Assembly: GCA_013336525.1 (NCBI GenBank)
Contig: JAAXTM010000006.1
Location: forward strand, 62,001-126,000
Direction: 5' to 3'
Length of the DNA: 64,000 nt
DNA from: Geobacteraceae bacterium
GTDB lineage: Bacteria; Desulfobacterota; Desulfuromonadia; Geobacterales; Pseudopelobacteraceae
Shown here: piece after piece, positions 10,060 to 55,877 of the stretch
Layout: every line of letters starts with the position of its first letter
Numbering within the stretch: position 1 is the stretch's first letter
Notes under the pieces: model-generated
Told to the model about the DNA's origin: nothing
Seen by the model: the letters and a program-made list of their open reading frames with translations, nothing else
The model's database searches: none
Program-made: the position numbers and the translations under genes

Positions 10060-13090
<3,031 letters not shown>

Positions 13091-13091
<1 letters not shown>

Positions 13092-14935
13092 CAGAAGTTC
13101 ACCCTCACTCCGCCTTCAAACCAGCGGGATGCATTTGGCGCAATTTCGTCCTGATACTGTTTCCCGTTGAAAAGGTTGTGGCCGGAGAAGAACAGTTCAA
13201 ACGAGTTGTTTTCACGTTTAATGAGTGTGGCGCCCAGATGGAGGTCCCAGATCAAACCGGCGTATTGGCCGCCGTACCCGGGGACTGCGTTCCAATAAAT
13301 GTGGCGGCCGGTAAGAGCGCCACGATAGGTTTTGTCGTCGTAGCGTAGCGCCAGCTGTACCGTATGGCGAGGGTCTGCATACACCTTTGATCCGTCACTG
13401 GCGTGGATGCTGTCGGTGAACGTGTACCCTGCCCCAACAGAGGTGTTGTAGAGCGGCGTGGTCCGGACTTCTAATTCTGCGCCTTTGGCGACGCGAGACT
13501 CCGGAATAGAAGAGTCCAGGTTCCGTAGATTTCTCACATTTGTGAGCTCATTGCGGAAAAGCGTCCCCTTCACCCAGAGGTACGGTACGGTGGAACTTTC
13601 GATACCAATTTGACTCGTCCATACCTTTTCCGGCTGACGATCATTAAGCAGAGAGGGGAGGCTGAAACCACGGGCCGTGTACCCCCGCACCAGGGTGGCA
13701 TCGGTAAGTTGCCAGACAGCGCCAAGAGAGGGGCTAAACTGATCGCCACCGGTGACGGTTCGGTCAAAACGAGCGCCGGGTATGACGGAAACCGGGCCAA
13801 AGGTGGAGGTGTCGTTCAAGTAGACACCCCAGCGATTCACCGTTCTGTCCAGCATATCAACATGGACAAATGCATCATTTGCCTTTAATTCGGCATGCTC
13901 GTAGTCCGCTCCCACTACCAATAAATTGTCAACTCCGCGCCATACCAGTTTGGCACTCGCACCGCTCGCCAGTTCGCGGCTGTTAATGGTTTGTGTCGGG
14001 GTGTTGTCAGAAATCTGGGCAGAAAAGGTGTCTTGATGTCTGGATGAGTAACGACCAAGCAGCTCAAGCTCAAGTCCGTTGGCCAAAGACTTGCGCATTC
14101 CCATGGAAGCGGAAATGGTGTGAAGAGACTGGTCTTCCTTGTTATCCCAGCCGATATTGTCGCCCCACAATGTTCCACGGTCTGCCCGGTCATACTTGAA
14201 GGTAGACCAGAACTGGCCATTGTCGGGGAGACTCCATAATAATTTGGTATAGATGCCGTTTGACGAGACAGCTGTATGCGGAGTCAGCCCATTCGTGCCG
14301 AGAAAGCCGCCGGAGAGATAGTATCCCATACGGCCCGTAGTGCCGAAAAGCTCCGCTCTGGTGTCGGCTGTGGTCCGTTCACCGATGGAGGCGCTGACAG
14401 AGCCTCCATCGGCACGGTCAGTACCTGATGACTTGGTGATGACGTTTATTACCCCTCCCAATGCCTGACCCCAGACAGAGGAGGCGGCACCCTTGACGAT
14501 CTCGATCCGTTCGATGATTTGAGCCGGAACCAGACTTACGTCAGAGAAGTTTTCCCCCAGGGTGTTGAGCGGTATGCCATCAAGCAGCACCAGTACATGC
14601 GCAACAGATGAAGATTGAATGCTTGTGAAGACGATATTTCCCTGAGCACCGCGCGGATCGGTCTGGATGCCTGGGATGGTTATCAATACGTCGGCCAGGG
14701 TGTGGGCGTTGAGCAGCCGGATGTCGACGGCAGTGATGACGGTGACGTTTTCGGCGGTTTGTGATAGCGGTTTGGGCACGCGGGAAGACGCGGAAGTTTG
14801 TTCCTGAAAGGCGTTAAACAAGTCAAGGGTGTCTTCGTTCTCCTCGCCCCATGAGAGTGAGGGAGACAGACAAATAGTCAGGCATATGAACAAAAGAATC
14901 GCCTGTAGGCTATGTGATTTGTAGACTGTTTTCAT
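13091..14935 (-). CDS. TonB-dependent outer-membrane receptor
   Basis: Plug domain TAENVTVITAVDIRLLNAHTLADVLITIPGI, C-terminal beta-barrel ending ...GGVRVNF. Confidence 0.9.
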
Positions 14936-15011
14936 AGAAGATCTTTTTTAATTAACAGAAAAAATGTTATTTTGTCCATCAATTTAAATATACAGAAAGG
15001 AGGTGATACGA

Positions 15012-15113
15012 ATGAGTGAGGAAAATAATGATTTGGTAGTGTTGGTGGAAGGGCAAAGCGAAGAGTCTGTGCAGGCATGCACCTGCACGACTGGGCCAAC
15101 TGCGGTCAGGTAG
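15012..15113 (+). CDS. putative radical-SAM-modified RiPP precursor peptide (geopeptide-like), 33 aa
   Basis: ATG after AGGAGGTGAT RBS; MSEENNDLVVLVEGQSEESVQACTCTTGPTAVR; immediately upstream of rSAM/SPASM maturase; too short for the ORF track. Confidence 0.72.
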   Translation: MSEENNDLVVLVEGQSEESVQACTCTTGPTAVR

Positions 15114-15119
15114 TCAACC

Positions 15120-15145
15120 GGCAGGGAGGGCATTTACTCCCTGCC
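15120..15145 (+). terminator. hairpin between precursor peptide and maturase (attenuator/processing candidate)
   Basis: Perfect 9-bp stem GGCAGGGAG / CTCCCTGCC with 8-nt loop, no strong U-tract. Confidence 0.65.
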
Positions 15146-15169
15146 AACCTATTTCATGGAGCAACTTAA

Positions 15170-16519
15170 ATGGAGCTGTCACGCTATCTGAAGGTTTATT
15201 CCAGCACCGACAAGCCGGGGCGGGTTTTATTGTTCGCCACAAGACTCTGCGCGGTGCTGGAGTTGTCTGAATCGCTCTGGTCAAAGGTCTGCTCTGGTGG
15301 TGATTTGGCGGAGAAGGAGATTGAAACCTTGCTGCGTCTGAAGGTCATGGTGCCGAATCATTCTGTCGAACGGGAAGAGCTGCTGGATACCTTCAATCGT
15401 GCCAACCGGATGAAACGGCCCTTCACAGCCCTGGTGACGCTGACGCTGGAGTGCAACCTGGCTTGCCCGTACTGCTTTGAAGAACCCTTCCGGGGAAGCT
15501 TGAGAATGACTGATGATACGGCTGGGGTGTTGATCGCCATGCTGGAAAACAAGATGAAAGCGGGACTGGATGTGAAAGTCGATTTCTACGGTGGTGAGGC
15601 ATTGATGGAACTGCCTCGCCTGAAGTCGATTGCCGGTCGCCTTCACGAAGCAGCGCGTGTTAACGGTGTTGTTTTTGAGTTTTTTATCATCAGCAACGGC
15701 ACGCTGCTAAACCGTCAGGTTGTGCAGGAATTGCTTCCGCTTGGCTTGATCGGCGCGAAGTTGACCCTCGACGGCCCATCTGATATTCATGACCAACAAC
15801 GTCCCTTTGCCTCCGGTCGCGGGAGTTTTGCTCCAATCCTTAAAAACATTAAAGAGATCTCTGGTCTGATTTCGCTTGAGCTGGGCAGCAATTATACCCG
15901 CGATAACTATCTCCGTTTTCCGGAAATGCTTGATATTCTACTGCAGGAAGGTGTTACCCCGGATAAGCTGGCGGCGGTAGGTTTCTTTCCGGTTTTCCCC
16001 AAATCGGACGGCAGCATGAGCGGCGAGTGCAACTCGGCCTGTTCCGCATGTGACGAGCCCTGGATGATCGAGGCCGGTCTTTTTCTGCGCGGTGAAATAC
16101 TACGCCGCGGATTTGTTGCCCCGAAGACAAGAATGGCCGGCTGCATGATCGAGTTCGACAATGATATCGTGGTTGGCTACGATGGTTCACTCTACAAATG
16201 CCCGGTGTTCATGGGACAGGAAGAAATGTGTGTGGGCACCCTTGCAGACGGCATCAACGATTACCGCCAATCCCACAACCTCGATGTCTGGAAAAACAAT
16301 GAATGCCTGGAGTGCGCCTATCTGCCGCTCTGCTTCGGCGGCTGCCGCTTCTTTAACAAACTGAAAACCGGCAGCATCAACGGCGTCGATTGCCGCCGCG
16401 TCATGCTGGATGCTTCATTGGAAAGAATCGTATTGCAGGATCTGGCATCGAGATGCGATAAGGGAAAACGAATTCCTCCATTGTTACAGTCTATTTCAAA
16501 TCCTGACGGAGTCGCTTGA
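15170..16519 (+). CDS. radical SAM/SPASM peptide maturase (geopeptide maturase-like)
   Basis: LECNLACPYCFE (CxxxCxxC) and C-terminal SPASM cysteines (CPVFMG...CLECAYLPLCFGGCRF...C). Confidence 0.87.
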   Translation: MELSRYLKVYSSTDKPGRVLLFATRLCAVLELSESLWSKVCSGGDLAEKEIETLLRLKVMVPNHSVEREELLDTFNRANRMKRPFTALVTLTLECNLACPYCFEEPFRGSLRMTDDTAGVLIAMLENKMKAGLDVKVDFYGGEALMELPRLKSIAGRLHEAARVNGVVFEFFIISNGTLLNRQVVQELLPLGLIGAKLTLDGPSDIHDQQRPFASGRGSFAPILKNIKEISGLISLELGSNYTRDNYLRFPEMLDILLQEGVTPDKLAAVGFFPVFPKSDGSMSGECNSACSACDEPWMIEAGLFLRGEILRRGFVAPKTRMAGCMIEFDNDIVVGYDGSLYKCPVFMGQEEMCVGTLADGINDYRQSHNLDVWKNNECLECAYLPLCFGGCRFFNKLKTGSINGVDCRRVMLDASLERIVLQDLASRCDKGKRIPPLLQSISNPDGVA

Positions 16520-23408: not shown

Positions 23409-24500
23409 ATGAGTACAGAATTTATTCCAAAATGGATAGCATGGGAAACCACGCAAAAATGTAACCTTCACTGTGTGCACTGCCGTTGTTCCTCTGACCT
23501 GACCTCTTCAGAAGGTGACTTTACTACTGAAGAAGGAAAAAAACTCCTGAAAGATATTGCAGATTTTTCTAAACCGGTAGTTGTGCTTTCAGGCGGGGAG
23601 CCACTATTGCGACCCGACATATTTGAACTTGCCGAGTACGGGACATCCCTTGGCCTGCGGATGTGTATGGCTACCAATGGCTCATTAGTTACTGACGAAA
23701 TATGCCAGAAGATGAAGAAAGCCGACATAAAGATGGTCTCGCTGTCACTTGATGGATCAAATGCCGAAGTACACGACAATTTCCGCCAGTCTCCCGGCTC
23801 ATTCGATGGAGTTGTTCGCGCAGCAGAAATATTCCGGAGAAATGGCCAAAAGTTTCTGATTAATTCCTCTTTTACCAAACGAAATCAGACCGACATTGCC
23901 GCCACCTTCAAAACGGCAAAGTCTCTTGGGGCAACCGCCTGGTATATGTTCATGATAGTCCCGACCGGGCGCGGTGAAGAGATCATGAGTGAACTCATCT
24001 CAAAAGAGGATTACGAAGAGATTCTGGACTGGCACTATCAGCAGGAAAAGATGGAGGACGATATTCTGATGCGTCCTACCTGTGCCCCCCACTATTACCG
24101 GATCGTGCCGCAGAAAGCAAAGGCCGAGGGGACCACTTTCGAGCGCCGTTCATTGACTTTCTCTACAGGTGGCGGCAAGGGTTGCATCGCGGCACAATCC
24201 ATCTGCCTGATTGATTGCTACGGCAACCTGAAACCCTGTTCGTACTTTCATCGCACTGCAGGCAATGTCAAGCAGACCCCTTTCAAGGAGTTGTGGGAGA
24301 ATTCGGAAATATTCAAGAACCTGCGTGACTTCAAGGCGTACAAGGGCAAATGCGGGGAATGCGAATATATTAACGTCTGCGGTGGTTGTCGTGCCCGCGC
24401 CGATGCTATTCATGGGGATTACATGGAAGAAGAACCGTTCTGCAACTATGTTCCCATCCGCACCCAGCGCCGCGAGGAAGCAGAAAGTAAAAATAAGTAG
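23409..24500 (+). CDS. radical SAM/SPASM protein, AhbC/AhbD/NirJ-like (heme b synthase AhbD candidate)
   Basis: [19 protein letters not shown] CxxC... [31 protein letters not shown]. Confidence 0.72.
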
Positions 24501-52167: not shown

Positions 52168-52932
52168 TTAGGCGTTTTTGTTCATGCGGCGTTTGCCGAA
52201 TACTGCAAGACCAAGCATACCCATTCCGAGGAGTACCATAGTGCCAGGCTCAGGGACTGGAACTTGCTCATAGATTACATCATTAGCGCAGTTAACACCC
52301 CACCCAATGATGAAGCCCATATCACCAACAGCAAATCTACCATTATTAAAGTCAAATGAAGTTACTGTGGCGTCAGTAAGACCTGCAAAATATACAGTTC
52401 CTATTTGATTTATGTTATATGGGTTGTCATTATAATAACGGCTGTTCAGTAAATCAGCCGATACGGCAATCGCGTGATCGTTGCGGATAGTGAGGTCTGT
52501 ACCACCTGTTGTCACGTAATTGGATATAGGGTTAATTCCCTTTACAGAACTGAGACCAGCACCCGTAATATTGAACAAGGCATAATCGCCTGCGGCTTGA
52601 CCGCTTCTAACAATATAATCCCATGTTGTATCTGTGGCATTGTTCAACACATTAATAAACAGGTCCGTTGTGTAAAGATCGGACCAGCTATTGCTAAAGC
52701 TTAAATCCTGTGTAAATGTTATCTGACTCAATGTGCGGTCGGCCTCGATAGTAGCAGTACCACCAGTGATATCCGGGTGACCAATGACATCTTTAGAATT
52801 ATCCCCTGGGTCAGTCGTACTTTCCCATGTAGGCCAGAATTTTGCCGTATCCCCAAAAGTAGAGACAGCATAGGACGTTTGACTAAATGCAAGTTGCGCG
52901 ATAATGCCAAGTGTAAATAATACTTTCTTCAT
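52168..52932 (-). CDS. PEP-CTERM sorting domain-containing secreted protein
   Basis: Signal peptide; C-terminus VPVPEPGTMVLLGMGMLGLAVFGKRRMNKNA. Confidence 0.93.
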   Translation of the reverse strand: MKKVLFTLGIIAQLAFSQTSYAVSTFGDTAKFWPTWESTTDPGDNSKDVIGHPDITGGTATIEADRTLSQITFTQDLSFSNSWSDLYTTDLFINVLNNATDTTWDYIVRSGQAAGDYALFNITGAGLSSVKGINPISNYVTTGGTDLTIRNDHAIAVSADLLNSRYYNDNPYNINQIGTVYFAGLTDATVTSFDFNNGRFAVGDMGFIIGWGVNCANDVIYEQVPVPEPGTMVLLGMGMLGLAVFGKRRMNKNA

Positions 52933-55759: not shown

Positions 55760-55796
55760 AAAAAAACAGGCCGCCATTCTGGCATAACCTGTTTTT
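55760..55796 (-). terminator. intrinsic terminator in riboswitch leader
   Basis: Reverse strand AACAGG...GCCAGAATGGC...CCTGTTTTTTT. Confidence 0.8.
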
Positions 55797-55877
55797 TCGA
55801 TAACCCGGCTATCCTGAGTAATTTCAGGACCCGCAGCTTTGTGACCCCAGGTTACCCTGAGTTTACCTGTTCGAAAA
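55794..55877 (-). ncRNA. GEMM-I cyclic dinucleotide riboswitch aptamer (G20-type)
   Basis: Reverse strand TTTTCGAACAGGTAAACTCAGG-GTAA-CCTGGGGTCACAAAGCTGCGGGTCCTGAaattacTCAGGATAGCCGGGTTATCGAAAA. Confidence 0.82.

Follow-up and report, generated by a model that had tools for sequence, protein, structure and literature searches.

A geopeptide-type radical SAM cassette with a CxC precursor peptide beside a TonB-dependent receptor and a periplasmic binding protein

A precursor peptide gene, a hairpin, a radical SAM maturase, a TonB-dependent receptor, and a periplasmic binding protein were conserved jointly across the order and beyond, usually along with a membrane kinase. The cassette that we describe, found in the window (the entire stretch of 64,000 nucleotides from a Geobacteraceae bacterium that was analyzed), is real and is a new variant of a system known from computation. 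On balance we favor, with only modest confidence, an explanation in which the whole cassette is a geopeptide-type radical SAM RiPP system coupled to uptake and sensing components of its own. The first-pass annotation of this DNA had described the precursor and the maturase correctly but had overlooked the divergent TonB receptor and the binding protein. The contents that it gave for the span 15012-16519 were right, but the extent was not, as the cassette covers at least 12243-16519 (Table 1).

Table 1. Positions of the cassette features in the window.
Feature	Position	Strand	Remarks
Periplasmic binding protein, PF04392	12243-13091	-	N-terminal signal-like segment; start overlaps the end of the receptor gene
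TonB-dependent outer-membrane receptor (Plug and barrel)	13091-14935	-	Pfam; divergent from precursor and maturase
Candidate shared operator/promoter, AACAGA-N12-TTGTCCA	14954-14978	.	Between the divergent genes
RBS, AGGAGGTGAT	14998-15007	+	4 nt before the ATG
Geopeptide-type precursor, MSEENNDLVVLVEGQSEESVQACTCTTGPTAVR, 33 aa	15012-15113	+	ATG at 15012, stop at 15111-15113
GC-rich hairpin, 9 bp, 8-nt loop	15120-15145	+	Between precursor and maturase; z -2.7
Radical SAM/SPASM maturase, TIGR04280	15170-16519	+	449 aa, 619 bits

Judging from its sequence and its recurrence, the small ORF upstream of the maturase gene is a real precursor gene, beyond what would be expected by chance. The strong RBS and the 33-aa ORF that had been claimed were both present. 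The predicted peptide has an acidic leader with an LVVLVEG motif, followed by the core CTCTTGPTAVR, and it meets two features of the wider family: an SD-preceded short ORF 5' of a maturase gene and an [LIV]xVLxEG leader. For 128 of the 145 homologous maturases, we found upstream an SD-preceded counterpart with a leader of this type and a CC or CxC core. The annotation had named lack of such conservation as grounds for refuting its proposal, and this did not occur. We built a profile from 26 CC precursors and ran it on the 58,101 short ORFs of 82 loci. The profile matched the window peptide, which was absent from the seed, at an E-value of 2e-6, and essentially all matches with E < 1e-4 were immediately 5' of maturases. 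The leader-motif pattern occurred once in the window's own genome, at this very site, and searches with this pattern and with the NCBIfam geopeptide model TIGR04229 found no further geopeptides there. In the precursor alignment, only the two cysteines were invariant, and the Leu and Gly of the leader were more than 90% conserved.

The window peptide, as classified by its leader, belongs to a VVLxEG class that is poorly covered by TIGR04229. This model (curated cut-off of 30 bits) matched the peptides of 23 of 50 relatives, did not match the window peptide at E up to 1, and found nothing above its cut-off in a search of the whole genome, in agreement with the earlier description of the precursor as unlisted. 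The model also missed CC relatives that share the leader class of the window peptide (nine peptides tested singly). The core cysteines of 133 distinct precursors were CC in 129, CTC in 3, and CIC in 1. The CxC core that the annotation had singled out is present in the window peptide, but it is the exception in a family in which vicinal CC is the rule. The peptide lacks both a TIGR04229 match and the vicinal CC; its position, leader, and profile match assign it to the wider family. There are three other CxC members (CTC, CTC, and CIC): one at L071, from the same genus, one that is the first copy at L092, beside a truncated maturase, and one at L284, an orphan that adjoins a receptor and a binding protein with no maturase nearby. 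The core at L089 is a CC preceded by CT (...CTCC...). The possibility that the CxC members are a single lineage was ruled out, since their maturases do not form a clade. The existence of a CxC class indicates that the current peptide model does not span the whole geopeptide family. The core tails (7-13 residues long, with small residues prevailing in most) were highly variable and diversified by clade while the cysteines remained constant, and no conserved acceptor residue was found in the cores of the precursor set.

The gene directly after the precursor encodes a radical SAM/SPASM protein, as had been claimed, with the CxxxCxxC motif at C95, C99, and C102 and seven SPASM cysteines (C325, C344, C379, C382, C388, C392, and C408). 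It matched TIGR04280, the NCBIfam geopeptide maturase model, with 619.3 bits over positions 1-427 of 428 (curated cut-off of 400 bits). This match, together with the conservation of the small ORF beside homologous maturases, supports the geopeptide-system layout that the annotation had proposed. All ten Fe-S cysteines were invariant across 49 sequences, and the window maturase is intact. Within the same order, 102 of 141 genomes had TIGR04280, as did 40 of 395 genomes drawn from the phylum, 31 of these above the cut-off. A scan of genome contigs found one relative, the maturase of which has an in-frame TAG. At the locus of a close relative (L033:5001-6275; the same locus appears as L064), the TAG is at about L033:5890 and the CC-core precursor is intact; in-frame stops in the maturase were also seen in the relatives G419 and G469.

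We compared the cassette with known peptide systems. It shares with the NCBIfam geopeptide system (TIGR04280 with TIGR04229) the gene order, the leader motif, two core cysteines, and a maturase above the cut-off, and differs from it in having a peptide that is CxC rather than CC and unmatched by TIGR04229. We found no publication on geopeptides, on TIGR04280, or on a Geobacter radical SAM protein with TonB. The closest solved structure, both by profile (2e-34) and by fold, was CteB (5WGG/5WHY; about 20% identity), a thioether synthase with an RRE (PMC8326336). The window maturase is like CteB and the SCIFF and ranthipeptide maturases in its radical SAM core, its two-cluster SPASM domain, and an N-terminal region at the position of the RRE. 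This region (residues 18-80) is predicted, with low confidence (pLDDT 38-69), to have the RRE-like order strand-strand-helix-helix-helix. The structural model was mediocre overall (pLDDT 71) and came from a shallow alignment of distant homologues; the radical SAM proteins that a search of IMG/VR yielded were all distant, and they served as this alignment. The window peptide, with two cysteines in 33 residues, does not qualify as a SCIFF peptide, for which six cysteines in about 45 residues are characteristic. Similarity by profile was also found to PapB, of the freyrasin-type ranthipeptides (5e-37). The PapB linkage joins Cys to Asp or Glu, but Asp or Glu was present in only 9 of the 133 geopeptide tails. 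That the tails are nearly free of these residues and rich in small ones argues against PapB-type bonds and for bonds to small downstream residues. Thioether crosslinking of the cysteines is an inference by analogy, and the chemistry is untested.

A hairpin of at least 7 bp was present between precursor and maturase in 79 of 100 loci, compared to 14% of shuffles; the median z was -3.2, and the sequences of the hairpins differed. We infer that the hairpin in the window is likely an attenuator or a means of ending or protecting the mRNA, such that precursor is kept in excess over maturase. The candidate operator/promoter between the divergent genes was directional, occurring in 31 of 86 divergent loci (1.2 in shuffles) and in none on the other strand, and it was absent from co-oriented loci. 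It was also present in the orphan modules that have a precursor (L282, L284, and L286); among the precursor-free receptor modules, only L287 has TGTCCA, and there it is farther out. Read on its reverse strand, the element could be a receptor promoter (TGGACA-17-TTAATT), for which we have no test. There was no clear enrichment of a sigma-54, Fur, or sigma-70 consensus promoter in the intergenic region, and no riboswitch was matched by Rfam at the cassette locus.

The receptor and the binding protein are the strongest clue to geopeptide function. We collected about 140 maturase loci with flanks, of which 115 had adequate flank to count neighbors within 5 kb of the maturase. The receptor was found in 112 of these, the binding protein in 107, and a sensor histidine kinase in 101; the orientation was divergent in 87 and co-oriented at short range in 17. 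The window's own genome encodes only 4 Plug proteins and 3 PF04392 proteins, so the presence of both beside the maturase is not due to chance. That precursor and maturase are accompanied by this module in about a hundred loci suggests an extracellular role for the peptides, as metal carriers or signals that the producing cell re-imports. The receptor was nearest to CirA and BtuB, and the nearest structures to the binding protein were 3LKV, 6HNI, and 3LFT. No ABC permease or ATPase was beside the binding protein gene in the window, and none recurred across the neighborhoods. The kinase that usually adjoins the binding protein is of the HAMP/HATPase type, sometimes with a sigma-54 response regulator nearby, and relatives of this kinase have a periplasmic domain similar to sCache_4. 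In the window's own genome the kinase is unlinked to the cassette; a 64%-identical copy of the sensor domain is at G000:C24:57310-58062, within a HAMP/HATPase/receiver protein. Near this unlinked kinase (L305:4123-6084, on the same contig), proteins resembling a cation-diffusion transporter, a permease, CcdA, and rhodanese were noted by eye. Whether these neighbors hint at a metal or thiol signal remains open.

The module tended to be present or absent along with the maturase. In 58 near-complete genomes (hand-tallied counts), the binding-protein subfamily was strong in 49 of 50 that have a maturase versus 2 of 8 that do not (Fisher p 5e-6), and receptor homologues above 500 bits were absent from 6 of the 8 maturase-free genomes. 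Two maturase-free genomes, G508 and G406, retain the receptor module. G508 also has a precursor beside the receptor and binding protein (L282:5604-5703) with no maturase detectable in the genome, and is possibly a receiver-only strain or one that lost its maturase recently. In G153, the orphan precursor MREEHDDLLVLEEGSDTEMPMTCICTTSVTKIK (L284:9443-9545) is beside a receptor and binding protein, two maturases are encoded elsewhere in the genome, and maturation in trans is possible. There were also receptor-binding protein-kinase modules with neither precursor nor maturase (L280, L289, and L290-L296), some with more distant receptors. These indicate a wider family of ligand-sensing modules in the order, one that extends past the geopeptides and may have other ligands.

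We examined whether the core of the peptide tracks the receptor. The prediction that the core follows the receptor and the leader follows the maturase was only partly met. In a partial Mantel analysis of 110 loci, the correlation of core with receptor, given maturase, was 0.144, and that of core with maturase, given receptor, was 0.257, the reverse of the prediction. The prediction held only among loci with similar maturases, in which core distance correlated better with the receptor (rho of 0.54) than with the maturase (rho of 0.31). Where nearest neighbors were discordant, the core sided with the receptor in only 33 cases versus 20. In the receptor tree, the receptors of L062, L068, L089, and L113 were outside the clade of their maturases and grouped with receptors from loci with similarly ending cores. 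This covariation is suggestive of recognition of the core by the receptor, with mixed support.

In the explanation that we favor, the LVVLxEG strand of the leader would dock on the RRE-like N-terminal region of the maturase, which would then form one or two thioethers between the core cysteines and the small residues just C-terminal to them (TTGPTA), as inferred from CteB and the sactisynthase type. The trimmed product would exit the cell and either bind a ligand or itself serve as a signal; a metal is the most likely ligand because of the two cysteines and the CirA/BtuB-like receptor. The TonB receptor would re-import the product, the periplasmic protein would bind it, and the kinase would receive the report. 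The persistence of precursors beside the receptor without a maturase (L282 and L284) supports this explanation. Against it are the Mantel result, the precursor-free modules, the lack of a conserved acceptor, the mediocre model, and the fact that no exporter or leader peptidase recurred in the cassette neighborhoods.

It is less likely, but cannot be set aside, that the modified peptide is purely an intercellular or self-sensing pheromone, perceived through the receptor, binding protein, and kinase with no metal or cargo. A binding protein that has no ABC permease and usually sits by a HAMP/HATPase kinase, sometimes with a sigma-54 response regulator, fits such a role, as do the diversification of the core tails by clade and the listener-like maturase-free strains (G508 and G406) that keep the module, G508 with its orphan precursor as well. 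However, no route of export was found, TonB uptake is an expensive way to receive nothing but a signal, the window's genome has its kinase away from the cassette, and the invariance of two cysteines suggests chemistry or metal and not recognition alone. The missing exporter and dedicated peptidase would pose no difficulty if the peptide never left the cell and served there as a cofactor, a metal chaperone, or a redox carrier, and if the receptor and binding protein imported a partner (a metal, for example) and were merely co-regulated. The shared element in the divergent intergenic region and the metal-dependent anaerobic life of Geobacter relatives are in keeping with this. Mere co-regulation, however, would not be expected to produce either the covariation of core and receptor among close maturases or the precursors that persist by a receptor without a maturase, and we consider an intracellular role improbable. 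We give very little credence to the notion that the small ORF is an artifact or a relic, with the maturase having another substrate. The failure of TIGR04229, the CxC in place of CC, and the maturase stops in some related loci (L033) could be read in that way, but the ORF retains a strong RBS, the leader motif, two cysteines, and the downstream hairpin, there are three additional CxC members, and the window maturase is intact with every Fe-S cysteine.

The layout in the window, where the peptide gene has a TonB receptor gene and a binding protein gene as neighbors, is like that of methanobactin, in which the peptide is recaptured by the TonB receptor MbnT and the periplasmic MbnE (PMC7558416); peptide uptake in our case is inferred. 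Both systems have a small ribosomal peptide with cysteine chemistry. They differ in that here there is a radical SAM enzyme, the binding protein is PF04392 and not OppA-like, there is no exporter gene, and copper binding has not been shown. Neither MbnB nor MbnC was among the scanned neighbors (DNA ligase, HDOD, HD, LonB-like, hemerythrin, and others). Because Geobacter relatives rely on extracellular metals and electron transfer, releasing a peptide and recapturing it would add a new element to their biology. We offer only tentatively, as something that falls short of an even chance, the broader view that geopeptides are phylum-wide radical SAM-crosslinked peptides that are released and then recognized by a private receptor, periplasmic protein, and kinase, with fast-changing cores matched to receptors and some strains having only the receptor. 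This would amount to a second, chemically unrelated instance of the methanobactin principle or to RiPP signaling in Gram-negative bacteria. NCBIfam names geopeptides by computation only; their association with a receptor, a binding protein, and a kinase at more than 100 loci provides a concrete functional handle and proteins to test.

Elsewhere in the window there is a second radical SAM/SPASM protein (23409-24500, + strand) that is nearest to the heme b synthase AhbD, at 440.6 bits, below the cut-off of 500 bits. There are also three c-di-GMP-I riboswitches (45811-45885, 48888-48964, and 55796-55877, - strand), 5' of genes for secreted dockerin-like or fibronectin-like proteins and a large repeat-rich secreted protein. 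The region adjoins an exosortase/EpsI-like pair (49164-50646) and a PEP-CTERM-like protein (52168-52932). The names of these proteins were assigned by eye, and the region is probably a surface or EPS island controlled by c-di-GMP.
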